From Lelliottia nimipressuralis (lineage in GTDB: Bacteria > Pseudomonadota > Gammaproteobacteria > Enterobacterales > Enterobacteriaceae), in the NCBI RefSeq assembly GCF_004402045.1, contig NZ_SOMG01000016.1, positions 1 through 64,000 on the forward strand: a stretch of DNA of 64,000 bases. Direction: 5' to 3'. The notes under the pieces are model-generated. The model worked only from the letters and a program-made list of their open reading frames with translations. It made no database searches and was not told where the DNA came from. Position 1 is the first letter of the stretch; the number at the start of each line of letters is the position of its first letter. The position numbers were made by a program, and so were the translations under genes. This document shows, one piece after another, positions 658 to 19,664 of this stretch.

Positions 658-730
658 TCTCCATCGATATCATGCACATACCGTGATGAGTTCTGATTTT
701 TCGCTTCACTCTTTTTATGAATACGTGCTA

Positions 731-746
731 CTGTATGTTTATACAG
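731..746 (+). promoter_or_regulatory. LexA (SOS) box upstream of the tum-like gene
   Basis: CTGTATGTTTATACAG matches the LexA consensus CTG-N10-CAG with the full CTGT/ACAG ends, and it is extended outward to TACTGT...ACAGTA. It lies 20 bp before the GTG start at 767, overlapping where the promoter must be. Phage 186 controls tum in the same way from its LexA-repressed promoter p95. Repression by LexA and release by DNA damage is the expected behaviour. Confidence 0.92.
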
Positions 747-766
747 TATCTCGTGGTGGAGGGTGT

Positions 767-1207
767 GTGAACAGAGAGTTGAACGAGCAGGTCATGATTG
801 AACGAGTCGAGATGATTGCGCGACTGACGACAGAAGGAACGTGTCAGGAAAGAGATCGTGAAATTGCCCTGAATTTGATCGCTGAGATTGCGCGGGGAAA
901 TTTAATCAAGAACAACGCGTTTACCGTTGTTTTCTCAGCATCGCCTGTTCCGGAACGCATTAAAAAAGAGAACAACGTTCGGGTAAACATTACGCTCGAT
1001 AAAGATCGGCAGATTGACCCTGCCGTCGTCGAGGCCTTCCAGTGCGAGCTGACCCGCAGAATACGGTCCCTTTTTCCGTCATCCCGGGTGACCGTGAAAA
1101 TAGGGTCTGTGACGGGGGTCGAGCTCCAGGGGCTTGAAAGAGAGGTCGATCGCGAGGCGTTGGACGCTATTCTCCGGGAAGTCTGGGAAGACGAGAGCTG
1201 GCGCTAG
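767..1207 (+). CDS. tum: Tum-like SOS antirepressor, DinI family C-terminus
   Basis: The 147-residue protein has a DinI-like C-terminal half (VRVNITLDK..., ELTRRIRSLFP, ILREVWED at the end) after an extra N-terminal region of about 70 residues. That is the size and plan of coliphage 186 Tum, which inactivates the CI repressor after DNA damage. The start is taken as GTG at 767, preceded by GGTGGAGG. An upstream ATG at 683 would place the LexA box inside the gene and is unlikely. It follows gene A directly, as in 186. Normally cos and the head genes would come next, but tail gene X follows after 179 bases. A role as an SOS switch for the downstream tail and lysis genes, through a CI-type repressor, is inferred. 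Confidence 0.82.
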   Translation: MNRELNEQVMIERVEMIARLTTEGTCQERDREIALNLIAEIARGNLIKNNAFTVVFSASPVPERIKKENNVRVNITLDKDRQIDPAVVEAFQCELTRRIRSLFPSSRVTVKIGSVTGVELQGLEREVDREALDAILREVWEDESWR

Positions 1208-1386
1208 CCCCGGCTCATTACCCGAACCCACACCCTCATTCAGATTTTGCGCTTTCGTTGAACCACGCTTCGCTGCTCGCGGACGGCCTGTTGTGTCCGC
1301 GATTGTCCATCTCTCAGCGATAGCGAAAAGGCTGCCGGCCCGGGAAACTCTACAGTACCTGGAAAACCGGATGTTGGGAGCGTCTG
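1208..1386 (+). promoter_or_regulatory. Junction region replacing cos-Q-P-O-N-M-L; probable late promoter
   Basis: In P2 and 186 the cos site and the six head/packaging genes lie between this position and X. None is recognisable here. The region holds TGTTGTGT at 1289-1296, a word also found (TGTTGTTT, TGTTGTGT) upstream of V and FI, the heads of the other two tail operons. It may be what remains of an Ogr-activated late promoter such as PO, now placed 90 bp from X. No convincing gene is seen in the interval. Confidence 0.45.
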
Positions 1387-1590
1387 ATGAAAATCTATGC
1401 AATGCAGGGGGACACGCTTGATGCGGTTTGCGCCCGCTTTTATGGGCGCACGGCAGGCGTGGTTGAAGCCGTTCTGAAGGCCAATTCTGGCCTCGCGGAG
1501 TTAGGCGTTATCTTGCCTCACGGCACGCCGGTAGAGATGCCGGAGGTGGATAGCGCCCCCACAAAAGAATCCGTAAACCTATGGGACTGA
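1387..1590 (+). CDS. X: Tail protein X (gpX), LysM-like
   Basis: The 67-residue protein has the gpX pattern: MKIYAMQGDTLDAVCARFYG at the start, then VLKANSGLAELG and a closing LPHGTPVEMP. This is a single LysM-like fold found in P2 tails and in tailocin clusters, probably contacting peptidoglycan or the baseplate hub. It is the first gene of the tail/lysis run and overlaps the holin start by 10 bases. In P2 the head completion gene L precedes X; here L and all other head genes are missing. Confidence 0.9.
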   Translation: MKIYAMQGDTLDAVCARFYGRTAGVVEAVLKANSGLAELGVILPHGTPVEMPEVDSAPTKESVNLWD

Positions 1591-1802
1591 GCCTGGAGAA
1601 AATCACCACGTTTATCGCCTACTGGCTGGCCGTGGCGCTGGCCTGGTTCGGGGCGATGTCTCCTGAAAAAGTCGCGCTGTACGTGGGGAGTCTTTGCGCC
1701 ATTTTTACCGCGCTGACGAATTACTGGTTTAAGCGAAAAACCTGGCGCTATCTCCAGTCTCTGGGCCTCGATAAGAAGAGCATTCGTGAACTCAATCATT
1801 AA
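1581..1802 (+). CDS. Phage holin, two membrane segments (gpY-like)
   Basis: A 73-residue protein with two hydrophobic spans (about residues 9-27 and 33-51), a short turn between them and a basic C-terminal tail (FKRKTWRYLQ). This is the plan of a class II holin. It lies in the P2 gpY position between X and the endolysin, overlapping both. It should form the inner-membrane lesion or pinhole that depolarises the cell and releases or activates the endolysin. In a tailocin setting it would let particles out by lysing the producer. Confidence 0.85.
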   Translation: MGLSLEKITTFIAYWLAVALAWFGAMSPEKVALYVGSLCAIFTALTNYWFKRKTWRYLQSLGLDKKSIRELNH

Positions 1803-2295
1803 GCGTTGCAGCGTCGCCGGCGTGCTGGCCCTGGCGGTGTTGATGCCTGACTTTCGGCTACTGAAAACGTCCCCGGAAGGGCTGGCGTTGATTGCCGATC
1901 TTGAAGGATGTCGCCTCTCGCCCTACCGGTGTAGCGCTGGGGTATGGACGTCAGGCATTGGCCACACGGCAAACGTCGTGCCGACGCGGGACATTACCGA
2001 GCGTGAGGCTGCGGTAAACCTGGTCGCTGATGTGCTCAACGTTGAGCGGCGGCTGGCGGCGTGTGCGCCGGTGGAGATGCCACCCCGGGTCTACGACGCG
2101 CTGGTGAGCTTTACCTTTAATGTCGGCACGGGCGCCGCCTGCCGTTCGACCCTGGTGTCGTTTATTAAGCGTAAACAGTGGCCGCAGGCATGCGGCGAAC
2201 TTACCCGCTGGGTGTACGTCAACGGCGTCAAAAATGCCGGGCTGGAAAATCGCCGCGTTCGCGAGAAGGCCTGGTGCATGAAGAGGCTGCCGTGA
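1786..2295 (+). CDS. SAR endolysin, T4-type lysozyme (GH24, gpK position)
   Basis: The 169-residue muramidase has the glutamate-8-cysteine-5-threonine catalytic array: E40, C49 and T55 in LEGCRLSPYRCSAGVWT. A weakly hydrophobic N-terminal segment (about residues 9-20) rich in Ala, Gly and Val behaves as a signal-anchor-release domain. C8 in that segment, C42 and the active-site C49 reproduce the cysteine layout of P1 Lyz. There the membrane-tethered form is locked by a disulfide, and the SAR cysteine unlocks it on release. The start is GTG, overlapping the holin by 17 bases. The regulation by disulfide exchange is inferred from the cysteine pattern. Confidence 0.9.
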   Translation: MNSIIKRCSVAGVLALAVLMPDFRLLKTSPEGLALIADLEGCRLSPYRCSAGVWTSGIGHTANVVPTRDITEREAAVNLVADVLNVERRLAACAPVEMPPRVYDALVSFTFNVGTGAACRSTLVSFIKRKQWPQACGELTRWVYVNGVKNAGLENRRVREKAWCMKRLP

Positions 2296-2717
2296 GGGGC
2301 CTCATGCTGATATTGGCCGGGCTGCTGGCTATCACGCTGTGGCTTCGTCATGACAACCTGACCCTGTCCCGTTCCTTAGCCACCGCTAACCGGGTCGCCA
2401 GCGAGCAAAAAAACGCTCTCGCCGCGCTTAATCAACAGCTTTCCCTGTCACAGCGGATAGCCAGAGCCAACGAAAATGCTCAGGTCAGGCTCCGTGAGGA
2501 GTTGCTCACTGCGGGTGAGGAGAGGGCGAGACGGGAAGCGACTATCGGGAAATTACTCAATGAAAATGAAGCGTTACGCCGCTGGTATACCGCTCAGCTG
2601 CCTGATGCTGTCCGCAGGCTGCACACCCGCACCGCCTGCGCCTCCGCAGCACATTGTTTACAACGCCTGCCCGAAGGTGAGCCGCTGCCCGATGCCGGGA
2701 AGCGAACCCGCCACTAA
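2292..2717 (+). CDS. lysB: LysB/Rz-like inner-membrane spanin subunit
   Basis: About 141 residues: one N-terminal membrane span (MLILAGLLAITLWLRHD), then a long charged, heptad-rich helix (SRSLATANRVASEQKNALAALNQQ...) and a short tail. This matches i-spanins of the LysB/Rz group, which cross the periplasm with an outer-membrane lipoprotein partner to fuse the two membranes in the last step of lysis. The GTG at 2292 overlaps the endolysin stop; the ATG at 2304 is an equally possible start. The o-spanin gene begins inside this one in the +1 frame. Confidence 0.85.
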   Translation: MRGLMLILAGLLAITLWLRHDNLTLSRSLATANRVASEQKNALAALNQQLSLSQRIARANENAQVRLREELLTAGEERARREATIGKLLNENEALRRWYTAQLPDAVRRLHTRTACASAAHCLQRLPEGEPLPDAGKRTRH

Positions 2718-2850
2718 CGGCGATCTCAGCGCAGATATTCGCAGGCTTGAGTATGCCCTTATCGCCTGCGCGCTGCAGGTGGAAACCATTAAAGACTGTC
2801 AGGATAAACTCGATGCACAAACTCAAGAGCCTGCGTCAGGCATTAATTGA
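2560..2850 (+). CDS. lysC: LysC/Rz1-like outer-membrane lipoprotein spanin
   Basis: This gene begins inside lysB in another frame, the typical nested Rz/Rz1 arrangement. The N-terminus has a signal peptide and lipobox ending LSAGC, followed directly by the proline-rich TPAPPAPPQ segment usual in o-spanins. It runs past the end of lysB and overlaps the start of R by 38 bases. The protein should be lipidated on the cysteine and act with the LysB-like protein. The start ATG at 2560 (MKMKRYAAG) is chosen because it places the signal peptide correctly. Confidence 0.85.
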   Translation: MKMKRYAAGIPLSCLMLSAGCTPAPPAPPQHIVYNACPKVSRCPMPGSEPATNGDLSADIRRLEYALIACALQVETIKDCQDKLDAQTQEPASGIN

Positions 2851-3280
2851 CGCGATCCCCCAGCTGAATGCTCACCCGGAGCGCCTGCAGATGTCGGTCG
2901 GCAGCGGCAATATTGACGCCCGGCTGGCCACCTCGCTCTCCTTTGAAAAGCGGTATGCGCTAAACGCGAAGGTCAGCGGTTTTACCGGAGACAGCGAGGG
3001 ATTTTTCGTTCCGGTGCTGGCCTGGCTTCGGGAAAACCAGCCGGACATTTTTACCCTCGATGAGGGACGCCAAAACGGATACACCTTCGCGATCGTCCTG
3101 AACGATGACGATACGACGGACATCAGCATCAGCGTGCAGGTAACCGAGCGCATTCTTGTTTCCCAGGAGCAGGGCGTTCTGCACGCCACGTATTCCCCGG
3201 AGCCGCCGCTGCCGGAGCCCGTCACGCGTCCGAAGGCGCTGTACATCAACGGTGAGCTCGTCAGCCAGTGGGAGGACTAA
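2813..3280 (+). CDS. R: Tail completion protein R (gpR)
   Basis: The 155-residue protein has P2 gpR features: KLKSLRQALIDAIPQL at the N-terminus, VPVLAWLRENQPDIF in the middle and the VTERILVSQ segment near the end. gpR and gpS finish the upper end of the contractile tail. The start is ATG 2813, just after the overlapping o-spanin. In P2 relatives S follows R with overlap; here R ends and 112 non-coding bases lead to V, so S is missing from this cassette. The sequence differs clearly from the R fragment at 19072-19202, showing the two elements come from different phages. Confidence 0.88.
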   Translation: MHKLKSLRQALIDAIPQLNAHPERLQMSVGSGNIDARLATSLSFEKRYALNAKVSGFTGDSEGFFVPVLAWLRENQPDIFTLDEGRQNGYTFAIVLNDDDTTDISISVQVTERILVSQEQGVLHATYSPEPPLPEPVTRPKALYINGELVSQWED

Positions 3281-3392
3281 CTTCCCCACGCTGAAGGCCG
3301 CCTGCGGCCTGCTGTCTGGACAGCTTGTTGTTTCATCCCGCAGAAAACCCCGTCTCGTTGCTGCCGTTCTTCCTGAACGGCATTCTCTTCTC
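3281..3392 (+). promoter_or_regulatory. R-V intergenic region: S absent, probable late promoter
   Basis: P2 has gene S and then the late promoter PV here. No S-like frame remains. TTGTTGTTTCATCC at 3325-3338 resembles TTGTTGTGTAATCC upstream of FI (8562-8575), with a fixed TTGTTGT core. This could be the Ogr-binding half-site of PV. A full TGT-N12-ACA element as described for Ogr/Delta activators is not present exactly, so the assignment is tentative. Confidence 0.4.
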
Positions 3393-4034
3393 ATGAATAC
3401 ATTAACTTCCATGAACGGTATCGCTCGCGCGATCCGCAATCTGATTCGTATCGGTGTTGTGACCGATGTTGACCTCAACAGAGGGCTTTGTCGTGTCCAG
3501 ACCGGCGGTATGAAAACCACCTGGCTGAACTGGCTAACCTGCCGCGCGGGACGTTCGCGCGTGTGGTGGGCCCCTTCCGAGGGAGAGCAGGTGTTGCTGC
3601 TGGCCATCGGCGGGGAGCTTGATACCGCCTTCGTGCTGCCCGGCATTTTCTCGGACGACCATCCGGCGCCGTCCGGGTCGCCTGACGCGTTCCACGTCTC
3701 GTTTCCTGACGGCGCGGTAATTGAGTACGAACCCGGGCGCGGGGCATTGACGGTTTCAGGCATTAAAACGGCCGACATTACCGCCTCTGAATCGCTGACC
3801 GCCACCGTGCCGGAAGTGCGGGTGACGTCAACGTCCCGCATCACGCTGGATACGCCTGAGGTGGTGTGTACCAACAAGCTAATTACCGCCTCTCTTGAAG
3901 TGCAGAAGGGCGGTGTGATGGCCGGAAATATTGAGCATTCCGGCGGCAAATTCACCTCCAACGGGGTGCAGGTGGACAACCATGCGCACGGCGGTGTGCA
4001 AAGCGGCGGAAGCTGGACTAAGGGGACACAATGA
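3393..4034 (+). CDS. V: Baseplate spike protein V (gpV)
   Basis: The 213-residue gpV homologue is the central spike that pierces the outer membrane when a contractile tail fires. The N-terminal OB-fold region contains TTWLNWLTCRAG and WWAPSEGEQVLLL. The C-terminal beta-helix ends in VDNHAHGGVQ, whose His-x-His motif is the iron-binding tip signature of P2 gpV. ATG 3393 fits the family start. The gene overlaps W by 4 bases and starts the V-W-J-I-H-G operon. The complete tip motif argues that the spike is functional. Confidence 0.93.
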   Translation: MNTLTSMNGIARAIRNLIRIGVVTDVDLNRGLCRVQTGGMKTTWLNWLTCRAGRSRVWWAPSEGEQVLLLAIGGELDTAFVLPGIFSDDHPAPSGSPDAFHVSFPDGAVIEYEPGRGALTVSGIKTADITASESLTATVPEVRVTSTSRITLDTPEVVCTNKLITASLEVQKGGVMAGNIEHSGGKFTSNGVQVDNHAHGGVQSGGSWTKGTQ

Positions 4035-4381
4035 CGGTGCGTTACAGGGGAATGAACAGGCAGACCGGGCTTAGCATTTCAGAGGCGGACCACATCCGGC
4101 AAAGCGTGCGCGACATTCTGGTCACGCCGATTGGCTCGCGGGTCATGCGCCGGGATTACGGCTCGCTGCTGGCGGCGATGATCGACAGGCCGCAGAGTCC
4201 GGCGCTGCGCCTGCAAATCATGGCCGCCTGTTATTCCGCCATCCAGAAATGGGAGCCGCGGATAAGCCTGACGGCCATCACTTTCGAGCGTTCGGAGAAC
4301 GACGGGACGTTGTATGTCGATATCACCGGCACGCGTCCGACCTCCGGACAATCCTTTTCTATCACCATTTCACTGAGTTAA
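4031..4381 (+). CDS. W: Baseplate wedge protein W (gpW, T4 gp25-like)
   Basis: The 116-residue protein carries the gp25/gpW signature, including SIRQSVRDIL-like sequence, TPIGSRVMRRDYGSLL and a C-terminal ITISLS strand. It is a sheath-like initiator that joins baseplate wedge to sheath in contractile tails. It overlaps V by 4 bases (ATGA) and sits in the conserved V-W-J-I order. Confidence 0.93.
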   Translation: MTVRYRGMNRQTGLSISEADHIRQSVRDILVTPIGSRVMRRDYGSLLAAMIDRPQSPALRLQIMAACYSAIQKWEPRISLTAITFERSENDGTLYVDITGTRPTSGQSFSITISLS

Positions 4382-4386
4382 ACGCT

Positions 4387-5295
4387 ATGGCTATTGTTGA
4401 TCTGAGCCAGCTCGCCGCGCCTGATGTCGTGGAGGAGGTGGATTATGAAACGCTGTTGGCAGAACGAAAGGCCACCTTTGTCTCGCTCTATCCGGAAGAG
4501 GAGCGAGAGGCGATTGCACGGACGCTGACGCTGGAGTCAGAGCCGATTGTGAAGCTGCTGCAGGAGAACGCGTATCGGGAGGTTATCTGGCGCCAGCGCG
4601 TTAATGAGGCCGCACGTGCGGTCATGCTGGCCTACGCCGCGGGCAGCGATCTGGACCAGATTGGGGCAAACGCTAATCTTGAGCGTCTGGTGATTACGCC
4701 TGCCGACGACACCACGTTTCCGCCCACGTCGGCCGTGATGGAGTCCGATACCGATTTTCGTCTGCGCATCCAGCAGGCGCCGGAAGGGCTGAGCGTGGCC
4801 GGTTCAACAGGGGCGTATCAGTTCCATGGTCGCAGTGCAGATGGCCGGGTGGCGGACATTTCTGTGATCAGCCCACAGCCGGCGAACGTCACGGTCTCCG
4901 TGCTCTCCCGGGAGAATAACGGCGTGGCGTCTGAGGAACTGCTCGCCGTTGTTCGCAATGCGCTGAACGATGAGGACGTCAGGCCCGTCGCCGACCGCGT
5001 GACCGTCCAGTCGGCGAGGATTGTCGACTACAGCATTGCCGCCTCGCTATTTCTCTTCCCCGGCCCTGAAAGTGAACCTGTGCTTAGCGCGGCAAGGGCC
5101 CGGCTACAGGCCTATATCACGGCCCAGCATCGGCTTGGACGCGATATCCGCAAGTCAGCCATTTACGCAGCACTTCACGTGGAAGGGGTGCAGCGGGTGG
5201 AACTGACCGCACCTGCTGCTGACATCGTGCTTGATGAAACTCAGGCCTCATGGTGCAGCCACTACAGCGTAACCGTGGGGGGAAACGATGAGTAA
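4387..5295 (+). CDS. J: Baseplate wedge protein J (gpJ)
   Basis: The 302-residue protein belongs to the baseplate J family (T4 gp6-like wedge). Visible family features are VDYETLLAERKATFVSLYPEEER near the start, YAAGSDLDQIGANANLERL, and SDTDFRLRIQQAPEGLSVAGSTGAY split over the middle. The start ATG 4387 gives MAIVDLSQLAAPDV, matching P2 relatives. It overlaps I by 8 bases. Confidence 0.93.
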   Translation: MAIVDLSQLAAPDVVEEVDYETLLAERKATFVSLYPEEEREAIARTLTLESEPIVKLLQENAYREVIWRQRVNEAARAVMLAYAAGSDLDQIGANANLERLVITPADDTTFPPTSAVMESDTDFRLRIQQAPEGLSVAGSTGAYQFHGRSADGRVADISVISPQPANVTVSVLSRENNGVASEELLAVVRNALNDEDVRPVADRVTVQSARIVDYSIAASLFLFPGPESEPVLSAARARLQAYITAQHRLGRDIRKSAIYAALHVEGVQRVELTAPAADIVLDETQASWCSHYSVTVGGNDE

Positions 5296-5818
5296 TACCC
5301 GCCTTTTACCGGTTGGCTCATCGCCGCTTGAGGTCGCTGCGGCGCGGGCCTGTGCGGATATCGAAAAGACGCCTGTTCCGCTGCGCCATCTCTGGAATGC
5401 AGACACCTGCCCGGCGGATCTGCTGCCCTGGCTGGCATGGGCGTTTTCGGTTGATCGCTGGGATGAGAACTGGCCGGAGGCCACCAAGCGGGAGGTGATC
5501 CGCGCCGCGTGGTTTATTCATGCCCACAAGGGAACGATTGGCGCCGTGCGTCGCGTGGTGGAACCGCTTGGCTATCTGATCAACGTTACCGAGTGGTGGC
5601 AAACCAACGATCCGCCCGGCACCTTCCGCCTTGATATCGGTGTGTTAGACACGGGCATCACCGAGGAGATGTATTACGAAATGGAGAGGCTTATCGCCGA
5701 TGCGAAGCCTGCCAGCCGCCACCTTATTGGCCTGAATATCATCCAGGACATACCGGGTTATCTCTATACCGGCGCCCTGAGCTATGACGGCGACATCATC
5801 ACGGTTTATCCCGGATAA
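5288..5818 (+). CDS. I: Baseplate wedge protein I (gpI)
   Basis: The 176-residue gpI homologue contains the family blocks LLPWLAWAFSVDRWDENWPE and KGTIGAVRRVVEPLGY, and is the usual length for gpI. With J and W it forms the baseplate wedges that hold the tail fibres. It starts inside the end of J and is followed 11 bases later by the fibre gene H. Confidence 0.93.
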   Translation: MSNTRLLPVGSSPLEVAAARACADIEKTPVPLRHLWNADTCPADLLPWLAWAFSVDRWDENWPEATKREVIRAAWFIHAHKGTIGAVRRVVEPLGYLINVTEWWQTNDPPGTFRLDIGVLDTGITEEMYYEMERLIADAKPASRHLIGLNIIQDIPGYLYTGALSYDGDIITVYPG

Positions 5819-5829
5819 GTGAGAGCACA

Positions 5830-8106
5830 ATGACAGTGAAATATAAAACGGTTATCACCAAAGCCGGTGCCGAAAAACTGGCTGCAGCAACCATCCCGAA
5901 CGGTAAGAAAGTCAATTTTACGGCGATGGCCGTGGGGGACGGTGGGGGCACATTGCCGGTGCCAAACGCAAACCAGACGAAACTCATCAATGAAGTCTGG
6001 CGTCATGCGCTGAATAAAATCAGCCAGGACAAAAAGAATAAAAACTATGTCGTGGCGGAGCTGCTGATCCCTCCTGAGGTCGGCGGTTTCTGGATGCGCG
6101 AGATGGGGCTGTATGACGATGCCGGGACGCTGATTGCGGTCGGGAATATGGCTGATAGTTACAAACCTGCACTTGCTGAAGGTTCGGGGCGTGCTCAAAC
6201 CTTACGCATGGTTATCATGGTGAGTGATATTGCTTCGGTTGAACTCTCTATTGACGCGTCAACGGTGATGGCGACGAAGGATTATGTCGACGAGAAGCTG
6301 ACGGAGCATGAGCAGTCGCGCCGCCATCCGGACGCCACGCTTACCGCAAAGGGCTTTACCCAATTAAGCAGTGCAACCGACAGCGTATCTGAGATATTCG
6401 CTGCAACACCGAAAGCGGTGAAGGCGGTTTACGATCTGGCAAACGCTAAGTATACGGCGGTGGATGCGACGACTGCACGCAAGGGGATTGTTCAACTTAG
6501 CAGTGCTACCGACAGTGTGTCTGAAGTGCTGGCGGCGACGCCGAAGGCGATAAAGAGCGTTAGTGATGACCTGGTAAAACTAAAAGATAGTCTTGGCACT
6601 GCATCAAAACTGAATATTGTTACATCCGCGATTGACTTAACGACGGGTCGCCTGCCAGTGGTCGGCTGGATGGGTCTGGGCGGTGTAAGAGATACGAAAG
6701 TAGCAGATGAAAATTTTGCTTCTTTTTGGCGTGATACCAGTATTGGAAAATCAGGTATTACCATCCCCTATGATGGTACCCCAACGATTTCATATCTTGC
6801 AGTAGATGGTGCCAATCAACATGCCTATGTAGGCCGGAAAAAGGGTAATGTTGATATTTCATGGGTAAAGCTCTATAGCGAATTTAATAAGCCGACATCT
6901 CAGGAGATATTCGGGACAACATCAGGCATAGGTGGAAGTGCAGACCTTAACACCTATACTGCTCCGGGTCTTTATTATCAACCTGCCAACGCTCAGGCAC
7001 AAACGGGTAAAAATTATCCTGAGGCGGTTGCGGGTTCACTTGAGGTTTATAAGCATGCAGGTATCACTCAAATTTATCGAATTTATAGTAACTCGCGGTC
7101 CTATATTCGTACCCTTTATAATGGAACATGGTCTGCCTGGTCAAAACAATACGATACTGCGAACAGACCTTCTGCAGATGATGTTGATTCGGTATCCGCC
7201 TCGAACGGAGGAACATTCAGGAAATTAGTTAGTTTTAGTGAAGGACTTGAGGTGCGAAGCCGTACGGGAATTACGAGCGGGAACGATGCAGCCAGTTTTG
7301 ACAGTGCTAATATGATTTTAAAATCTTGGTATGGCATTGGTTTTTATTCGACCTTGTTGGATTCAGTTGGTAAAGAAACTGGAATGACGGGCTACATCAA
7401 CACCCGTAATGGCCTTTTGCAAATGAAAGGGCAAATTATTCCCGGTGATTACGGCAACTTTGACGGGCGCTTTATCAAACTGTCTGGCAGTCAGAATATA
7501 ACGGGTACGTTGCGTAATTCAGATGAATATCAGTCAACGTCTGCCAATGGTTATCGTTCTGTTTACGGTAGTTATGGTACTTTCTGGCGAAATGATGGTT
7601 CTAATTTATACCTGATGATCACTAACTCGGGTGATCAGTATGGTGCATATAACAACCTCCGACCATTTGCTGTAAATCTGGCAACGGGTTATCCAACGAT
7701 GAGTAGATTGGCGTTAACTGATTATGCCAATTTTGATGCGCGTTATTACACTAAAAGCCAGTCAGACGCTGGTTATATGCCTAAAGTCTCTGCTTATACA
7801 AAAGCCGAAAGCGATGCGCGCTATAACCTGAAAAATGCAGCCAGTAAGGCAGCGAGCGGTTGGGAGAAGGATAACTCTACGGGCGTGATAAAGCAGTGGG
7901 GGGTGGCAACGCGTAGTGCTGATTCGACGCGTATTACCTTCCCAACGGCGTTTCCTAACGCCTGTCTCAGCGTGCAGTTAACCTTGCTTTTTACCAATGG
8001 GTTCCACGACCAAAATATTTACGTGCAAAACCCTGATAGATCAGGTTTCACCTACGTAGCGGGCAGTGGCGAAGTTAAAGCTTATTTTGAAGCGCGAGGC
8101 TATTAA
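5830..8106 (+). CDS. H: Tail fibre protein H (gpH), receptor-binding
   Basis: The 758-residue fibre has the conserved P2 gpH N-terminal attachment domain (MTVKYKTVITKAGAEKL..., PPEVGGFWMREMGLYDD) to about residue 150. Two near-copies of a collar repeat follow (LSSATDSVSEIFAATPKAVK and LSSATDSVSEVLAATPKAIK). A long variable shaft rich in Tyr, Ser and Asn comes next, then a C-terminal tip (VIKQWGVATRSADSTRITFP) of the QWG type common in enterobacterial fibres. The tip sets target specificity and folds with the help of the G protein. The drop in G+C from about 6580 on points to exchange of the distal module. No frame break is seen. Confidence 0.92.
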   Translation: MTVKYKTVITKAGAEKLAAATIPNGKKVNFTAMAVGDGGGTLPVPNANQTKLINEVWRHALNKISQDKKNKNYVVAELLIPPEVGGFWMREMGLYDDAGTLIAVGNMADSYKPALAEGSGRAQTLRMVIMVSDIASVELSIDASTVMATKDYVDEKLTEHEQSRRHPDATLTAKGFTQLSSATDSVSEIFAATPKAVKAVYDLANAKYTAVDATTARKGIVQLSSATDSVSEVLAATPKAIKSVSDDLVKLKDSLGTASKLNIVTSAIDLTTGRLPVVGWMGLGGVRDTKVADENFASFWRDTSIGKSGITIPYDGTPTISYLAVDGANQHAYVGRKKGNVDISWVKLYSEFNKPTSQEIFGTTSGIGGSADLNTYTAPGLYYQPANAQAQTGKNYPEAVAGSLEVYKHAGITQIYRIYSNSRSYIRTLYNGTWSAWSKQYDTANRPSADDVDSVSASNGGTFRKLVSFSEGLEVRSRTGITSGNDAASFDSANMILKSWYGIGFYSTLLDSVGKETGMTGYINTRNGLLQMKGQIIPGDYGNFDGRFIKLSGSQNITGTLRNSDEYQSTSANGYRSVYGSYGTFWRNDGSNLYLMITNSGDQYGAYNNLRPFAVNLATGYPTMSRLALTDYANFDARYYTKSQSDAGYMPKVSAYTKAESDARYNLKNAASKAASGWEKDNSTGVIKQWGVATRSADSTRITFPTAFPNACLSVQLTLLFTNGFHDQNIYVQNPDRSGFTYVAGSGEVKAYFEARGY

Positions 8107-8107
8107 T

Positions 8108-8530
8108 ATGAGTTATATATACTCTCCTGAAAACGGGGCTTTTTATAATGATGATCTGGAGGCTGATTATCGTTCCGCCCAAACGTGGCCGGATAATTAT
8201 GTCAGCGTGCTTGATGAAGACTATGTGTCGCTGATGGAGGGGCAAGCAGACGGGAAAATAATTATTCCAGATAAAAATGGCTATCCCGTATTAGCGGAAC
8301 CTCCCGCACCAACCTATGAAGAGCGCGTGAGCCAGGCAACGATGCAAAAAAACGCCTTAATGAAAACGGCAAGTGACATTATTACTCCACTTGAGGATGC
8401 AGCTGAACTCGGTATAGCTACCGACGAAGAGGCAGCCTCGCTTTTAGGCTGGAAGCGATACCGGGTCATGCTTAACCGGGTAGATGTGAGCGCCGCCCCG
8501 GACATTCAATGGCCCGCACTCCCTGCCTGA
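8108..8530 (+). CDS. G: Tail fibre assembly chaperone G (Tfa family)
   Basis: The 140-residue protein has the Tfa layout: an N-terminal part facing the fibre tip (MSYIYSPENGAFYNDDLEADY) and a C-terminal half with EERVSQATMQKNALMKTASDIITPLEDAAELGIATDEE-type helices, TSLLGWKRYRVMLNRVD-like sequence and a final WPALPA. It helps the H fibre trimerise. The ATG at 8108 directly follows the H stop. A strong terminator closes the operon. Confidence 0.92.
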   Translation: MSYIYSPENGAFYNDDLEADYRSAQTWPDNYVSVLDEDYVSLMEGQADGKIIIPDKNGYPVLAEPPAPTYEERVSQATMQKNALMKTASDIITPLEDAAELGIATDEEAASLLGWKRYRVMLNRVDVSAAPDIQWPALPA

Positions 8531-8534
8531 CCCC

Positions 8535-8559
8535 AAACCCTCCATCCGGAGGGTTTTTC
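8535..8559 (+). terminator. Rho-independent terminator after G
   Basis: Perfect 9-bp stem AAACCCTCC/GGAGGGTTT with an ATCC loop, ending in TTTTT. It ends the V-W-J-I-H-G operon before the FI operon. Confidence 0.9.
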
Positions 8560-8560
8560 G

Positions 8561-8654
8561 TTTGTTGTGTAATCCTTTCCCCAACCCCAATACGTCGCAT
8601 CAATCACGCACTCCACAGACAATAGCTTCACCACTAAACGAAGGAGTTAACCGG
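8561..8654 (+). promoter_or_regulatory. Probable late promoter of the FI operon (PF position)
   Basis: The interval between the G terminator and FI is where P2 has PF. It holds TTGTTGTGTAATCC at 8562-8575, close to the word upstream of V, about 93 bp before the FI start. A good ribosome site, AAGGAG (8641-8646), precedes ATG 8655. Activation by the Ogr protein at 14862 is inferred. Confidence 0.4.
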
Positions 8655-9848
8655 ATGGGCGACTATCACCACGGCGTGGAAGTCATCGAAATCAACGATG
8701 GCACGCGCACCATTTCCACCGTCTCGACGGCAATCATCGGCATGGTCTGTACGGCCAGCGATGCTGACGACAAGACATTCCCTTTAAACGAGCCTGTGCT
8801 CATTACCAACGTGCAAAATGCGATTGCGAAAGCCGGCAAGGCGGGGACGCTGTCCGCTTCTCTGCAGGCTATCGCTGACCAGTGCAAACCGGTTGTCGTT
8901 GTTGTGCGCGTGGCTGAAGGTATCGACGACCCGGAAGATCCGGAAGCGGCACAGAAAAAGACTATCTCCAACATCATCGGTACCACTGATGAAAACGGCA
9001 AATACACCGGTCTGAAGGCGCTTCTGACCGCGAAAACGGTGACCGGCGTTAAGCCGCGTATTCTCGGCGTACCGGGGCTGGATTCTCAGGAAGTAGCGAC
9101 TGCACTGGCCGCCATGTGCCAGAGCCTGCGCGCATTCGGCTATGTCAGCGCATGGGGTTGTAAAACCATTTCGGAAGCAATCGACTACCGCAAAAACTTC
9201 AGCCAGCGCGAGCTGATGGTTATCCATCCTGATTTTCTGGCTTGGGATACCACCACGAACGCAACGACAACGGCCTGGGCAACCGCCCGCGCGCTTGGCC
9301 TGCGCGCCAAAATCGACCAGACAATCGGCTGGCATAAAACCCTGTCAAACGTTGGCGTCAACGGTGTTACTGGCGTAAGCGCTTCTGTCTCCTGGGATCT
9401 TCAGGAACAGGCCACCGATGCGAACCTGCTTAACCAGGCTGGCGTCACCACGCTGATTCGCAACGACGGCTTCAAATTCTGGGGTAACCGTACCTGCTCA
9501 GACGATCCGTTATTCGTCTTTGAAAACTACACCCGTACCGCACAGGTGCTGGCCGATACCATGGCGGAAGCGCATGCGTGGGCGATGGATAAACCTATCA
9601 CCCCAACGCTTATCCGCGACATTGTTTCCGGTATTAACGCCAAGTTCCGCGAGCTGAAAACCAACGGCTATATCGTCGACGGTACCTGCTGGTATGACCC
9701 TGAATCGAACGATGCATCCACCCTGAAAGCGGGGAAACTGTATATCGATTACGACTACACCCCTGTCCCGCCGCTGGAAAACCTGACCCTGCGCCAGCGC
9801 ATCACCGATACCTATCTGGCAGACCTGTCAGATTCGGTTAATAGCTAA
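8655..9848 (+). CDS. FI: Tail sheath protein FI
   Basis: The 397-residue contractile sheath protein is close to the 396 residues of P2 FI. Family features include the start MGDYHHGVEVIEINDGTRTI, the conserved FWGNRTCSDDPLFVFENYTR block and a C-terminal YDYTPVPPLENLTLRQRITD. It contracts to drive the inner tube through the envelope. It opens the FI-FII-E-T-U-D operon. Confidence 0.95.
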   Translation: MGDYHHGVEVIEINDGTRTISTVSTAIIGMVCTASDADDKTFPLNEPVLITNVQNAIAKAGKAGTLSASLQAIADQCKPVVVVVRVAEGIDDPEDPEAAQKKTISNIIGTTDENGKYTGLKALLTAKTVTGVKPRILGVPGLDSQEVATALAAMCQSLRAFGYVSAWGCKTISEAIDYRKNFSQRELMVIHPDFLAWDTTTNATTTAWATARALGLRAKIDQTIGWHKTLSNVGVNGVTGVSASVSWDLQEQATDANLLNQAGVTTLIRNDGFKFWGNRTCSDDPLFVFENYTRTAQVLADTMAEAHAWAMDKPITPTLIRDIVSGINAKFRELKTNGYIVDGTCWYDPESNDASTLKAGKLYIDYDYTPVPPLENLTLRQRITDTYLADLSDSVNS

Positions 9849-9859
9849 GGAGCTGAAGC

Positions 9860-10378
9860 ATGGCGTTACCACGCAAACTTAAATACCTGAATATGTTCAA
9901 CGATGGCCTGAGCTATATGGGCGTTGTTGAGTCTGTCACCTTACCGAAGCTCACCCGCAAGCTGGAGAAGTATCGCGGTGGCGGTATGCCTGGCTCGGTC
10001 TCTATCGACCTCGGCCTGGACGATGATGCCCTGGCGCTGGAGTGGACCATTGGCGGTCTGCCGGACGTGGCGCTATGGGCGCAGTATGCCTCTCCGGGCG
10101 CGGACAGCGTGCCTCTGCGCTTTACCGGCTCTTTCCAGCGTGACGACACCGGCGAAATCTCCGCCGTCGAAATCGTCATGCGCGGCCGTCACAAAGAGTT
10201 TGATGGCGGTGAAAACAAGCAGGGCGAGAGCGGCACCACCAAGATGTCCACCGAGTGCGCTTACTACCAGCTGACCATCGATGGCAAAGAGATCGTCGAA
10301 ATCGACATCATCAACATGGTGCTGAAAGTCGACGGCGTCGATCGTCTGGCGGAACACCGTAAGGCGATTGGCCTGTAA
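9860..10378 (+). CDS. FII: Tail tube protein FII
   Basis: The 172-residue tube protein has the same length as P2 FII. MALPRKLKYLNMFNDGLSYMG at the start (one residue omitted from quotation is not implied) and the RKLEKYRGGGMPG loop are typical. It polymerises into the inner tube under the sheath. The ribosome site AAGGAGCTGAAGC lies just upstream, 11 bases after FI. Confidence 0.95.
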   Translation: MALPRKLKYLNMFNDGLSYMGVVESVTLPKLTRKLEKYRGGGMPGSVSIDLGLDDDALALEWTIGGLPDVALWAQYASPGADSVPLRFTGSFQRDDTGEISAVEIVMRGRHKEFDGGENKQGESGTTKMSTECAYYQLTIDGKEIVEIDIINMVLKVDGVDRLAEHRKAIGL

Positions 10379-10434
10379 CCCTTTAACCGGCCGGGACTAC
10401 CGGCCGGCAAGTTAACTTTCTGAAGAGTAACGAA

Positions 10435-10743
10435 ATGAACAATATCAACGAGACTGCCATGAACGAAAGTGAAAACCCACATATCGTCACGCTGGATAGC
10501 CCCGTTATGCGCGGCGAGCAAAAAATCGAAAAAGTGACCGTCGCAAAACCCAATGCGGGGACCCTGCGCGGGGTATCGCTGGCTTCGCTTGCGCAATCTG
10601 ACGTCGATGCGCTGATTAAGGTGCTGCCGCGAATGACCTCGCCGGCGCTGACCGAGCATGAGGTTGCGCGCCTGGATGCCTGCGATCTGCTCTCTTTTGC
10701 AGGTAAGGTGATCGGTTTTTTGTCACCGGCTTCGGCTCGCTGA
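10435..10743 (+). CDS. E: Tail assembly chaperone E
   Basis: The 102-residue short product of the E/E' pair contains the gpE core VTLDSPVMRGEQKIEKVTV and LPRMTSPALTEHEVARLDACD. It wraps the tape measure during tail assembly. The slippery TTTTTTG at 10716-10722 near its 3' end allows a -1 shift into E'. An ATG nine codons downstream (10459) is an alternative start. Confidence 0.93.
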   Translation: MNNINETAMNESENPHIVTLDSPVMRGEQKIEKVTVAKPNAGTLRGVSLASLAQSDVDALIKVLPRMTSPALTEHEVARLDACDLLSFAGKVIGFLSPASAR

Positions 10744-10895
10744 AATTTCCCGAAAAACTGTCGGTCGACGATCTGATGGCGGATATCGCGGTGATCTTTC
10801 ACTGGCCGCCGTCAGAACTGTACTCCCTGAGCGTGACCGAACTCCTCTTATGGCGCGAAAAAGCGCTGCAGCGAAGCGGAAACCACCATGAGTAA
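10435..10895 (+). CDS. E': E+E' tail assembly chaperone by -1 ribosomal frameshift
   Basis: A -1 shift on T-TTT-TTG (10716-10722) carries translation from E into an open frame. That frame reads VTGFGSLKFPEKLSVDDLMA and ends LQRSGNHHE with TAA at 10893-10895, overlapping the T start. The fused product is about 153 residues. The same slippery heptamer and layout are known for P2 E+E' and, in equivalent form, for most long-tailed phages. The ratio of the two products matters for tail assembly, so the intact shift site supports a working assembly line. Confidence 0.88.
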
Positions 10896-13167
10896 TAATG
10901 TCAGTCTTCAGGAGCTGCTTAAGGCAGTCGACCGGGCAACCCGACCGCTTAACGCTCTCCATAACGCCAGCCTCACCCTCGCGAGCGATATCCGCAATAC
11001 GCAGACGTCGCTGGGAGCGCTCGATGAGCAGGCGGGGCGTATTGACGGCTTCAGGAAAGCAAATGCCCGGCTCACCGTGACGGAGCAGTCGCTTGCCCGG
11101 GCGAAACAGCAGGCAGCGGCGCTGGCGGTGCAGCTTAAGAACACGCAAAACCCCACCCAGGTTCAGGCTGATGCGCTGTCCGCAGCCCGAAAATCGGCAG
11201 CCGACCTTAAGCTTGAGTACAACAGCCTGCGCTACTCGGTACAGCGCCAGCGCACCGAACTCGCCCAGGCGGGAATAAACACGCGCACGCTCTCGTCGGA
11301 TGAGCGTCGTTTACGCACCCACATCAGCGATAAAACGCTGCAGCTTAACCGACAGCGGGATGCGCTGGCCCGCGTCAACCAGCAGCAGGAGCGGCTGAGT
11401 ACCGTTCAGAATCGCTATGAGTCAGGCAAACGCGTGGCCGCGCGGGTACATCAGCTGGCTAATGCAGGCGTGGGCATGGCCAAAGCGGGCTTTGACCAGA
11501 CGTCCCGGTTTATGGCGCCTGGCATCAGTTTTGAAAAACAGATGTCGGCCATTCAGGCAAATCTTGGCCTGGAGAAGGGCGACGTCCGGCTTGAGGCCAT
11601 TCGCCAGCAGGCGCGGGAGGTTAGCGTCAGCGCCGGCGTACCTGCGGATACGGTTGTCCAGGCTCAGAACGAGCTGGCCCGTTCAGGCTATGACGCCGAT
11701 GGGCTGCTTGCGGCCACCGCGCCAGCGGTCAACCTCAGCCTGGCGGGGAATGTCGACGCGGCGAAAGCGGCCGATACGATCGCCAGCACGCAGGCCGCGT
11801 ATAACCTGGCGAATACGGATGCGGGGCGCATCGCAGACGTTCTTACGCGCGGTTTTACCTCTTCAAATACCACCCTCGCTGAGATGGAGGCCGCCGTCAC
11901 CTCCGCCGCGCCCGCTGCGGATGCTTTCGGTATGGGGCTTGAAGAGACCACCGCGCTGCTTGGCGTCCTGGCGGAAAAAGGGATGAAAGGTGCCGCCGCC
12001 GGGGATGCGCTCAGCGCGATGCTGCGCCATGTTCAGACTCCGGATGCCATAAAAGCCGCGGGGGTGCTGGCTTCCGCTGCGGGTGATGGATCGCTTGATG
12101 AAAAACGCCAGCAGCTGCAGGGGGCAAAGGGCAGTACCGCACTCGTGGCTTCCGTTCAGACCGATAATCTTGACGGCGATATCAGCCGGTTCCAGGCCGC
12201 GCTGAACGGGTTAAAGATTGATGTGTTTGATAAATCGGATGGCGCTTTGCGCAATCTGACCACTACCGCGACGGGGTGGGTCGGCACGCTTTCGCTTTGG
12301 GTAAACGCTAACCCTGAGCTGACGCAAACCCTGGTTAGCGTGATTATCGGCGCACAGGCATTTGCCGGCGTACTGGGCACCTTAGGGATGGTCGTCGCGC
12401 CGGTGTTGTCTGGCCTGAATCTGGTCATGACCGCCGCAGGAATGTTGGGAACGGTATTCAGCGTGGTGGGTGGTGCCATCATGACGGTGCTGGGCGCCCT
12501 TAGCTGGCCGGTTATTGCCCTTGGCGCGGCGATTGCCGCCGGTGCTTTGCTGATTTTTAAATACTGGGAGCCCATCAGCGCCTTCTTTGGTGGAGTGATT
12601 GAGGGGCTTTCTGCAGCCTTCGCGCCGCTGGGCGAGCTGTTCGCTCCGCTGTTACAGGCCTTTGGTTTCATCGCAGAAAAACTGGGCGGGATCTGGCAAT
12701 GGTTTACCGATCTTATTGCGCCGATCAAGGCGACGCAGGAAACGCTCGACAGCTGCAAAAATGTCGGCGTGGCGTTCGGTCAGGCGCTGGGCGATGCGCT
12801 GATGGCACCGCTTAATCTCTTTAACAGCCTGAGCGGCAAGGCCAGCTGGCTGTTGGAAAAACTCGGACTGATCAAAAACGAGTCGGGCAATCTCGACTCC
12901 GCTGCGGCAAAAGCCGACGTGGCATCCTCTCCTGCGGGCAGTTCGTATATTCCGGGGACGGGGACCTATGGCGGCTACCAGGGATATCAGCCAGCCCTCG
13001 CGACGGGAGGACGCTCTTACGTCGATCAGAGTAAAAGCGAATACAACATCACGCTGCAGGGGAGCACGGCCTCCGGAACGGATCTGACCCGTCAAATCCG
13101 GGAGGCAATAGAGAGCAGTGAACAGGATAAAGCGAGACGGCAGCAATCCAGCTTTTTGTATGTTTGA
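10888..13167 (+). CDS. T: Tail tape measure protein T
   Basis: The 759-residue protein sets tail length and sits inside the tube. It has an N-terminal helical coiled-coil region (to about 190), a P2 TMP core domain (ISFEKQMSAIQANLGLEKGD, then ARSGYDADGLLAAT and VTSAAPAADAFGMGLEET), two or three hydrophobic spans around residues 485-560, and a C-terminal part with glycine and tyrosine. It overlaps E' by 8 bases. The length is slightly below P2 T (815 residues), predicting a tail a little shorter than that of P2. Confidence 0.93.
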   Translation: MSNNVSLQELLKAVDRATRPLNALHNASLTLASDIRNTQTSLGALDEQAGRIDGFRKANARLTVTEQSLARAKQQAAALAVQLKNTQNPTQVQADALSAARKSAADLKLEYNSLRYSVQRQRTELAQAGINTRTLSSDERRLRTHISDKTLQLNRQRDALARVNQQQERLSTVQNRYESGKRVAARVHQLANAGVGMAKAGFDQTSRFMAPGISFEKQMSAIQANLGLEKGDVRLEAIRQQAREVSVSAGVPADTVVQAQNELARSGYDADGLLAATAPAVNLSLAGNVDAAKAADTIASTQAAYNLANTDAGRIADVLTRGFTSSNTTLAEMEAAVTSAAPAADAFGMGLEETTALLGVLAEKGMKGAAAGDALSAMLRHVQTPDAIKAAGVLASAAGDGSLDEKRQQLQGAKGSTALVASVQTDNLDGDISRFQAALNGLKIDVFDKSDGALRNLTTTATGWVGTLSLWVNANPELTQTLVSVIIGAQAFAGVLGTLGMVVAPVLSGLNLVMTAAGMLGTVFSVVGGAIMTVLGALSWPVIALGAAIAAGALLIFKYWEPISAFFGGVIEGLSAAFAPLGELFAPLLQAFGFIAEKLGGIWQWFTDLIAPIKATQETLDSCKNVGVAFGQALGDALMAPLNLFNSLSGKASWLLEKLGLIKNESGNLDSAAAKADVASSPAGSSYIPGTGTYGGYQGYQPALATGGRSYVDQSKSEYNITLQGSTASGTDLTRQIREAIESSEQDKARRQQSSFLYV

Positions 13168-13178
13168 GGAGAGAGAAA

Positions 13179-13643
13179 ATGTTAATGGTGCTGGGTCTGT
13201 TTGTCTTTGAACGACGAACCTTACCGTATCAGTCAATGCAATTTTCAAAGGACTACCGCTGGGTGTCCAACGAGCGCATCGGAAAACCCAAAGCCTGGCA
13301 GTATCTTGGCGAAGGCGAGACTTCTCATTTGCTTACAGGGACGCTCTATCCGGAAATCACCGGCGGGCGACTCTCCCTGAAGGCGATTGAGCTGATGGCG
13401 AATGAAGGGCGGGCGTGGCCGTTGATAGACGGCACCGGCATCATTCACGGCATGTTTGTCATTGAGAAAGTCACGCACACGCACACGGATTTTTACAGCG
13501 ATGGTGCCGCCCGAAAAATCGAGTTTACCCTGTCGCTAAAACGCGTGGACGAATCGCTGATGACGATGTTTGGCGACCTGAGAACGCAGGCCTCAGAGCT
13601 GGTGGAAAGCGCACGTAATAGCATTGGAGGGCTGGTGGGATGA
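13179..13643 (+). CDS. U: Tail protein U (gpU)
   Basis: The 154-residue gpU homologue has the family blocks LPYQSMQFSKDYRWVSNERI and GEGETSHLLTGTLYPEITGG. It probably caps the tail tube end. The start ATG 13179 follows GAGGAGAGAG; an in-frame ATG upstream overlaps T and is less likely. It overlaps D by 4 bases. Confidence 0.93.
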   Translation: MLMVLGLFVFERRTLPYQSMQFSKDYRWVSNERIGKPKAWQYLGEGETSHLLTGTLYPEITGGRLSLKAIELMANEGRAWPLIDGTGIIHGMFVIEKVTHTHTDFYSDGAARKIEFTLSLKRVDESLMTMFGDLRTQASELVESARNSIGGLVG

Positions 13644-14794
13644 TCGCTGAAATGAATATCCAGGCGGGTGGGAAAATCGCCCCTGATTTTATGCTTAAGC
13701 TTGACGATCGCGATATCACGCAAAATTTCAGCCATCGTCTTATCAGTTTGACCATGACCGACAAGCGTGGGCTGGAAGCCGATCAGCTGGATATTCAACT
13801 GGATGATTCCGACGGGCTGTTAGACCTGCCTGCCCGGGGGGCAACGCTCTCCTTATGGCTGGGATGGACGGGAACCCCGCTCGAGCTGAAAGGGAACTTT
13901 ACGGTCGATACCATTGAGTTTCGGGGGGCGCCGGACACGCTGACCATTCGGGGATGCAGCGCGGATTTTCGCGGAAAGCTAAACGTTCGGCGCGAACAGT
14001 CGTGGCATGACACGACGATCGGCGCGATCGTTAATACGATTGCTCAGCGTAACCAGTTGACCGCCAGCGTTGCGGCGGATCTTTCATCTAATGCTATTTC
14101 GCATATCGATCAGTCTCAGGAGACAGACGCGGCGTTTCTCACCCGCCTGGCCGAGCGTAACGGTGCCTTTGTTTCAATCAAAGCCGGCAAGGTTATTTTT
14201 ATGAAGGCGGGCCAGGCCGTGACGGCTGGCGGCACATCGATTCCCCTAATGATGATTGAACGCGGGGATGGCGATAAGCATCTTTTTTCCGTCGCTGACC
14301 GTGAAAATTACTCCGGCGTGACGGCCAAATGGCTGCAAACGCGCGACCCTAAAAAACAAAATACTCAATTGAGTATTTTTCGTTTGCCTGAGGGGCAGGC
14401 GACACAGGGACTGCCGCACCCGGATGCCGCTGCGCCGTTTGCGGGAGCCGGGGGCAAGGAACAGAAGCCGCAAGAGATGCTGGTGGGCTCTGCGGAGAAC
14501 GTATTTGAGCTCACCACGGTGTATGCCTCCGAAGAGCAGGCACTCAGGGCTGCGGAGGCGAAGTGGCGCGCGCTGCAGCGAGGTACGGTGAATTTTTCCA
14601 TCCAGCTGGCGCTGGGACGCGCCGATCTGTTCCCCGAGACGCCGGTGCTGGTCAACGGCTTTAAACGCGTTATTGACGAGCAGGCCTGGATCATCAGCGA
14701 GGTGGTTCATACCCTCAGCGGGAGTGGATATACCACGAAGCTGAACCTTGAGCTTAACGTCGCTGAGGAAAAATTTTCTGTCGACAGTGAGTAA
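13640..14794 (+). CDS. D: Baseplate hub protein D (gpD, T4 gp27-like)
   Basis: The 384-residue hub protein matches P2 gpD (387 residues). Blocks seen are LTMTDKRGLEADQLDIQLDD, SWHDTTIGAIVNTIAQRNQL and, in the C-terminal half, NYSGVTAKWLQTRDPKKQ. It joins the spike V to the tube. The gene overlaps U by 4 bases and ends the operon before ogr, as in P2. Confidence 0.94.
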   Translation: MIAEMNIQAGGKIAPDFMLKLDDRDITQNFSHRLISLTMTDKRGLEADQLDIQLDDSDGLLDLPARGATLSLWLGWTGTPLELKGNFTVDTIEFRGAPDTLTIRGCSADFRGKLNVRREQSWHDTTIGAIVNTIAQRNQLTASVAADLSSNAISHIDQSQETDAAFLTRLAERNGAFVSIKAGKVIFMKAGQAVTAGGTSIPLMMIERGDGDKHLFSVADRENYSGVTAKWLQTRDPKKQNTQLSIFRLPEGQATQGLPHPDAAAPFAGAGGKEQKPQEMLVGSAENVFELTTVYASEEQALRAAEAKWRALQRGTVNFSIQLALGRADLFPETPVLVNGFKRVIDEQAWIISEVVHTLSGSGYTTKLNLELNVAEEKFSVDSE

Positions 14795-14826
14795 TTCATT
14801 TGCCATTACGTTGTTTTTGAGTATTA

Positions 14827-14849
14827 TTGATTCACAAGTTGTGAATCAA
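14827..14849. promoter_or_regulatory. 10-bp palindrome upstream of ogr
   Basis: TTGATTCACA and TGTGAATCAA form a perfect 10-bp inverted repeat with a 3-base centre (AGT), 12 bases before the ogr start and 32 after the D stop. The symmetry and AT-rich flanks suggest a protein operator. A short mRNA hairpin near the ogr ribosome site (GGAGGGG) is the other reading. No second copy was noticed in the window. Confidence 0.6.
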
Positions 14850-14861
14850 ACGGAGGGGTAC

Positions 14862-15062
14862 ATGTTTCATTGTCCTAAGTGCAAGCATTCAGCGCATGCG
14901 CGTACCAGTCGCTACTTAAGTGAAAATACCAAAGAGCGCTATCACCAGTGCACCAATGTGGACTGCAGCTGTACGTTCGTGACGATGGAGTCCGTGGAGC
15001 GTCTGATTGCGACCCCTGGCGAGGCTGGGAAAGCCCGAACAGCTTCGCTACCAGTTGTTTAA
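14862..15062 (+). CDS. ogr: Ogr/Delta-type late transcription activator
   Basis: The 66-residue zinc-finger activator has the Ogr signature: CPKCKHSAHARTSRYLS, a CTNVDCSCTF second cysteine pair (C-x2-C...C-x4-C) and TMESVERLI. Ogr proteins bind upstream of P2-type late promoters and recruit RNA polymerase through its alpha subunit. The gene follows D and precedes att, as in P2. Its presence means the tail cassette retains its own late activator. Start ATG 14862 follows GGAGGGG. Confidence 0.93.
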   Translation: MFHCPKCKHSAHARTSRYLSENTKERYHQCTNVDCSCTFVTMESVERLIATPGEAGKARTASLPVV

Positions 15063-15068
15063 AAACCA

Positions 15069-15104
15069 ATAAATAAGCCACTCAATGAGTGGCTTATTTA
15101 TTTG
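15069..15104 (+). terminator. Terminator after ogr
   Basis: Arms 15069-15084 and 15086-15101 form a long hairpin (ATAAATAAGCCACTCA and its complement around one central base), followed by TTTG. A/T-rich ends make it bidirectional. It closes the first prophage just before the att repeat. Confidence 0.9.
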
Positions 15105-15121: not shown

Positions 15122-15168
15122 TGGTGGCCACTGCTGGACTTGAACCAGCGACCAAGCGATTATGAGTC
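15122..15168. repeat. Attachment-site repeat, left copy (ileX 3' part)
   Basis: The 47 bases match 25101-25147 with a single mismatch (A at 15130 against C at 25109); 15131-15168 are identical over 38 bases. It equals the 3' half of tRNA ileX from the anticodon loop to CCA. The 5' half is missing here, so this is an att copy and not a tRNA gene. It is the junction between the ogr end of the first prophage and the int end of the second, the attM of a tandem pair. The next 188 bases carry only an imperfect hairpin at about 15240-15271. Confidence 0.93.
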
Positions 15169-15356
15169 CCAATATGATGTTAGAAAAATCAGTAATTTAA
15201 TGTTTTTTAAAGCTTTAACTAAGACGTATAGTGATGAAAAGTGGCAGATAGCGTTGCGCTCTGCTGCCACTTTGCTGCCAATCATCAGCTAGAATGAACC
15301 GCTCATCCTAGAGTGCTTTAATAAGTAAGCTGAACGTAATTATATAATATCGGAAG

Positions 15357-16268: not shown

Positions 16269-16349
16269 GAATCATCCTTTTGGTTTGTTGTTATCGCGTT
16301 TACGTATAATTATCATGACAAGATGTCGTAAAGATATATGTCATCATGC

Positions 16350-17363: not shown

Positions 17364-17371
17364 AATATTAC

Positions 17372-18274: not shown

Positions 18275-18285
18275 TCTAGATTCCT

Positions 18286-19638: not shown

Positions 19639-19664
19639 TACTTCAGTGTGTTGTAAATTGAAGT

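Follow-up and report, generated by a model that had tools for sequence, protein, structure and literature searches.

P2-related R-type tailocins are already known from Dickeya and Xenorhabdus, and the comparisons made here follow the descriptions in the available parts of the papers cited. Dickeyocin P2D1 of Dickeya dadantii comes from a P2-related contractile tail cluster without O, M, N and L, is induced by mitomycin and kills relatives (PMC10719855). Xenorhabdicin, a P2-like R-type tailocin of Xenorhabdus, is encoded at a tail locus that also contains OgrK, CI and a DinI regulator (PMC13280938), and kosakonicin, carotovoricin, enterocoliticin and the R-pyocins, which we liken to our locus by description, are also named as R-type tailocins (PMC10598620). 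In Escherichia phage 186 (Eganvirus), Tum is LexA-controlled and inhibits CI (PMC7708051). Here we describe a headless tail and lysis cassette of the 186/P2 type at positions 731–15062 of the window, meaning the whole 64,000-nucleotide stretch analysed, which is the first 64 kb of contig C17 in the genome of Lelliottia nimipressuralis (4.88 Mb, 29 contigs). We consider it very probable that the cassette belongs to an R-type tailocin island that arose from a 186-type prophage and has been inherited mainly vertically in Enterobacter and Lelliottia.

What would be new is that a lineage of R-type tailocins retains a conserved replication initiator. The parts of the Dickeyocin P2D1 paper available to us leave A and Tum unmentioned and report the P2 tape measure as missing (PMC10719855), and xenorhabdicin belongs to another genus and is described in a main text that, as available, does not contain the word "replication" (PMC13280938). 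No Enterobacter R-type tailocin was among the matches listed in the open-licence PMC literature, as judged by titles and the starts of abstracts. Three apparent parallels were set aside: the E. coli ST131 "tailocin" is a full intact prophage according to the available text of its authors (PMC9205054), capsid, portal and terminase genes are present in the 18-kb Klebsiella ST437-OXA245phi4.2 record, whose size had suggested a headless element, and DUF5347, tried as a marker of headless elements only, occurs in 68 phage records.

The locus resembles phage 186 in the order of cI, A and tum and of X to ogr, and in its LexA box, late-activator site, slip site and CI operator before ogr. All frames of the cassette are open, and family matches confirm the gene set from tum to ogr that the original prediction had read from the letters; the features given here lie on the forward strand, except that the CI operator and the partial tRNA carry no strand. 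The LexA box (CTGTATGTTTATACAG, 731–746) is the one found at the 186 tum promoter, and is identical in 13 of the 14 relatives (the 15 headless elements described below minus the window's own), with one base differing in G035. It is followed by a tum-like antirepressor gene of the DinI family (767–1207, GTG start by analogy with 186), X (baseplate hub, 1387–1590), a holin (1581–1802), an endolysin (1786–2295) that by eye is of the signal-arrest-release type, and Rz-like (LysB, 2307–2717) and Rz1-like (LysC, 2590–2850) spanins whose starts are not fixed. The tail genes run from R (tail terminator, 2813–3280) through V (baseplate spike, 3393–4034), W (baseplate wedge, 4031–4381), J (baseplate, 4387–5295), I (tail protein, 5288–5818), H (tail fibre, 5830–8106), G (fibre assembly protein, 8108–8530), FI (contractile sheath, 8655–9848), FII (tube, 9860–10378), E (tail chaperone, 10435–10743), T (tape measure, 10888–13167), U (13179–13643) and D (baseplate hub, 13640–14794) to the late activator gene ogr (14862–15062). 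The motifs predicted for these proteins were also recovered by eye, with HAHG in V and E-8-C-5-T in the endolysin, which we take to be the spike and lysozyme motifs, and the slip site T_TTT_TTG that would yield E' lies at 10716 in the same context as in 186. The tape measure has 759 aa in the window and in 10 of the 15 elements overall, 815 in four and 720 in one, compared with 812 in 186; most tails here should therefore be slightly shorter than those of 186.

Unlike 186, the element lacks Q, P, O, N, M, L, S, orf97 and cos. The original prediction had named cos, the portal gene Q, terminase genes P and M, scaffold gene O, capsid gene N, L and S as absent, and our searches agree: tblastn (E 1e-5) found no match to the seven 186 genes in window positions 1–15100, and the best match to the 19-base 186-type cos in the window has four mismatches, which is chance level, given that 20 shuffles of a relative's element returned four to six. 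All 12 headless elements tested gave four to six mismatches, compared with 0–1 in 186 and in all three headed prophages that have the region. An S gene at 19195 is part of the next element and not of the cassette. In further difference from 186, cII, fil and dhr were found within the element in no relative out of 14, 11 of these relatives lack apl there, and just 3 of the 15 elements have a full-length int, which is lost or shortened in the other 12. If the order in 186 (tum-orf97-cos-Q-P-(site)-O-N-M-L-X, the site being that of the late promoter) is assumed for the ancestor, the deletions removed two blocks that flanked the late promoter, and S went separately. What is left is a full contractile tail and baseplate set with its own lysis genes and no capsid or packaging genes. 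Set against a viable 186-type prophage, head, terminase and cos are missing, and the CI-Tum-Ogr circuit appears, from its genes and sites, to be present.

The tum-to-X junction (window 700–1700) was used as a query against 61 genomes of the genus (Enterobacter, with Lelliottia), 27 of which gave any match. The same headless order occurs in 15 of the 61, with the junction unbroken in 13, the window's genome included, and matched in two pieces of differing length in G032 and G035; one alignable junction is shared by the 15 genomes. Since four of these genomes are single contigs (G010, G023, G024 and G037) and other species carry the same order, it is not an assembly artefact. The elements also lie where the original prediction had placed them, at an ileX-type (tRNA-Ile2) site: 14 of 15 are in the tRNA-Ile2/mug/rpoD region, the exception being G035, where element and contig end together. 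For 10 of the 15, the window included, the extracted stretch contained a match to the mug/rpoD flank. A 45–47-base copy of the tRNA end, presenting as a partial tRNA-Ile2 attachment repeat at 15122–15168 in the window (full tRNA at 25103–25178), marks the right end of the element; it directly follows ogr in the window, G049, G008 and G010, and lies 3.3 kb further on in G018. In G008, G010, G018 and G049, mug/rpoD is found 21–51 kb on in the same direction, with further DNA between. We located the same site in 42 of the 46 other genus genomes (up to 20 kb surveyed per genome, 5 kb in one; G002, G040, G043 and G054 left out); eight of them hold a headed P2/186-type phage there, with head genes and S, and no tail-gene run was found at the site in the other 34. 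With headed sister phages using the same tRNA, this one headless clade amounts to a natural experiment, and a tail-only island in a quarter of the species genomes searched is of interest in an important opportunistic genus.

To define the range of the lineage, we also used a pattern drawn from these elements, covering the late-activator site together with the beginning of X, that none of the four headed loci examined contains. Across 84,980 species genomes it matched six named records: two of Enterobacter asburiae and one each of E. cloacae DSM 26481, E. mori, Enterobacter genomosp. O and Lelliottia nimipressuralis. These are probably among the 14 relatives, suggesting that they supply names for the lineage and not additional cases. 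Among 392 genomes sampled from the family, none outside the genus had the junction in one piece, and none of 5426 complete E. coli genomes covers 80% of window 700–2300. The 40 E. coli matches listed have X as their starting point and overlap the head completion gene as well; they were rejected as headless candidates.

A tree built from the joined sequences of eight tail and lysis genes places the 15 headless elements in one clade (100/100) and leaves five headed phages outside it, those of G042 and G051 being nearest. Distances between tail genes follow those between rpoD sequences (Mantel r 0.96, p 0.0001, n 15; 0.88, n 13, without G035 and G011). Because rpoD adjoins the site, the comparison was repeated with one unlinked gene on another contig, which gave r 0.90 (n 15) and 0.95 (n 13) with the tail genes, and 0.83 (n 15) and 0.86 (n 13) with rpoD; a second unlinked stretch was set aside, since G007 and G011 lack most of its length. 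To quantify selection, we computed pairwise Nei-Gojobori ratios of nonsynonymous to synonymous substitution (dN/dS) for 19 genes, using pairs with dS of 0.05–1.5 and excluding rows that covered less than 85% of a gene, broken copies among them. Of the 15 rows, 13 were left for W and D and 14 for J, I, T and ogr, and A was represented by 14 rows without the window; the cI value was not used, and Rz1 and G lie outside the test. Median dN/dS ranged from 0.03 (FII) to 0.35 (Rz), with 0.31 for H and single pairs up to 0.94 (ogr), at median dS of 0.27–0.74 (H 1.17), demonstrating the purifying selection on tail genes that had been anticipated.

The variation expected at the tip of H proved to be strong. 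Among 21 pairs from seven close elements, median identity over the final 150 residues of H is 20% (range 1–67%), compared with about 99% for the sheath, and a 50% cut separates 10 tip types among the 15 elements. The locus is thus fixed and maintained by selection, with a variable receptor-binding tip. The single clade, the distances that track the host, the low dN/dS and the turnover of the tip together argue for an old, mainly vertically inherited R-type tailocin, and an old headless lineage is our best reading. In the fibre regions of G007 and G284 (L036/L037 and L135/L136), two opposite-facing matches to fibre assembly genes suggest an invertible fibre cassette.

Several observations weigh against this interpretation. 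The headless order is absent from 46 of the 61 genus genomes, and the headless label requires nine changes on the rpoD tree (49 of 61 genomes), so that losses or some transfers must have been frequent. J, I and H have been exchanged in three elements: G008, G018 and G007 carry a replacement that runs from J into the beginning of H (J 70–77%, I 55–66%). In the genome of the window, a contig break splits gene A. The retention of A, with its catalytic motifs and nick site, departs from the absence of replication genes expected of tailocins. Finally, some copies decay. Intact frames across the relatives, a further expectation, held in part: the conserved frames from X to ogr are unbroken in 12 of 15 elements (G aside, and H judged by open length), and three carry a broken or shortened tail gene, with W, J and I broken in G007, D broken in G037 and W shortened in G035, whose D and ogr are only partly covered by the stretch taken. 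Such copies, together with the loss or truncation of int in 12 of 15, would suit an ordinary defective prophage that lost its head and has been drifting since, but we regard this as very improbable: outside the broken copies, the median dN/dS values do not show the relaxed selection that drift would bring, the 15 elements share one junction and one clade, R is kept though S is lost, and the late-activator site before X is kept as well.

A putative late-activator (Ogr/B-type) site before X (1289–1309) has 17 of 20 bases in common with 186 3798–3817, the annotated B-protein site before the head scaffold gene, and apparently derives from the old head-scaffold promoter. It lies between tum and X in all 15 elements. 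A second putative site of this kind, TGTTGT before FI (8563–8583), was recognised by comparison by eye with 186 14091–14110, and the same search missed it in some relatives; a TGTTGT site before V (3326) recurs in relatives but is not counted here as a promoter, as it departs from the 186 late sites. A putative CI operator, TTCAC-N5-GTGAA as at 186 pB, lies at 14831–14845 before ogr and is present in 13 of the 14 relatives, the G035 stretch not reaching it. The original prediction proposed that the deletion joined the SOS gene directly to the tail operon. With a late site before X and a CI operator before ogr, we revise this view: control most likely passes via CI and Ogr, and not by read-through straight from the tum promoter.

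By analogy with 186, from which the order of steps is taken, SOS control probably runs from LexA through Tum, CI and Ogr to the late promoters. DNA damage would strip LexA from the tum promoter, Tum would disable CI, and the loss of CI would open both the early operon, with A, and ogr, whose product would activate the late promoters upstream of X and FI. The contractile tails would then assemble without heads and be freed when holin, endolysin and spanins lyse the cell, with H and G setting the target. Judging from known tailocins, the particles probably kill related bacteria. That CI is full-length in all 14 relatives, and that headed relatives use the same site, could also mean that the island is kept for immunity, excluding related phages, and not as a weapon. 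We think this highly improbable, as CI alone would suffice for exclusion, leaving unexplained both the constraint on sheath, tube, baseplate and lysis genes and the turnover of the tip.

The replication initiator A is kept throughout the lineage. Its 3' part lies at window 57–657 (phrog_91, 3.8e-35, and a match to 186 A), and the N-terminal part is on contig C9. All 14 relatives have a long open frame of 653–733 aa with PHWHM and a YxxxY pair, which we take to be the HUH motif and the tyrosine pair of A, and the median dN/dS of the gene is 0.156 (90 pairs). The rolling-circle nick site (ori, 281–302) is identical over 22 bases to 186 28572–28593, the 186 origin being annotated at 28576; it is exact in the window and eight relatives, with one mismatch in five and two in G035. 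Because the site sits within the frame of A, its conservation is not independent of that of the gene. The available parts of two reviews describe tailocins, or prophages turning into them, as lacking or losing replication genes (PMC12090994, PMC10598620).

Retention of A and its origin probably serves to boost, in situ, either the copy number of the tail genes or late transcription. Late transcription in P2 and 186 depends on A, which would be a second reason for keeping the gene. Given the nick polarity that we assume for P2-type elements, extension from the origin would run rightward through the tail operon. We consider it a real, if somewhat less than even, possibility that during the SOS response A nicks the chromosomal origin, and that rightward strand displacement through tum and the tail operon multiplies the template without excision, head or packaging, the head having perhaps been lost more than once from elements that kept the same set (cI, DUF5347, a DksA-like gene, A with its origin, tum, tail and ogr). 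If repeated head loss left that set each time, replication would be a selected part of these weapons, raising the question of whether some tailocins replicate in place for yield, contrary to the reviews. The retention of A and ori, and the headed P2/186 phages that occupy this tRNA in 8 of the 42 other genus genomes surveyed, might instead suggest a phage satellite that makes tails, replicates by A and is packaged in the heads of a helper phage, the least probable of the alternatives and a very remote one, given cos matches at chance level in every headless element tested (only the 186-type cos was sought), the loss of int in 12 of 15 and tail distances that track host genes.

Headless elements are not confined to the genus. 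Five further genomes of the family, chosen by visual inspection mostly because their tum and X matches were near each other, form a non-exhaustive sample. Two from other genera, G294 and G284, are headless and keep CI, DUF5347, the DksA-like gene, A with its nick site, tum and X to ogr, with only the first 60–68 residues of tum matching; no 186-type int, head proteins or S were found in them. G190 and G326 are headed. The tail proteins reject a single headless group (p 1e-115; 11 headless rows, from 9 of the 15 elements plus G294 and G284), whereas A does not reject it (p 0.33; 10 headless rows, the window excluded). Either heads were lost more than once with A kept each time, or one headless backbone swapped its tails. 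G179 (L137, L138) has a P fragment and a near-complete L, lacks Q, O, N, M and S, and still has int and apl, as if a 186-type element had been caught half way.

The other half of the window's element lies at the end of contig C9, which carries cI, DUF5347, the greater part of A and an integrase truncated to 86 aa; base 1 of contig C17 falls inside A, and about 200 bases of the gene, judged by G017, are unassembled between the two contigs. In relatives, a DksA-like gene stands between DUF5347 and A (G032). Contig C17 opens (1–86) with an inverted repeat of its own following bases, probably a fold-back assembly end, and contig C9 likewise ends in a repeated piece of A. About 11 kb to the left of the tailocin's CI, contig C9 carries a long haemagglutinin-like frame (L065 11–1813), CdiA-like by eye, and the left flank of G017 also has a long frame. 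To the right of the cassette, a second element at the same tRNA (15169–25102) contains a 186-type integrase, a CI-like repressor, the orphan S gene and two likely defence proteins, TIR-type (17372–18274) and ApeA-like (19665–21416). A frame at 21709–22587 by eye encodes an IS3-type transposase.

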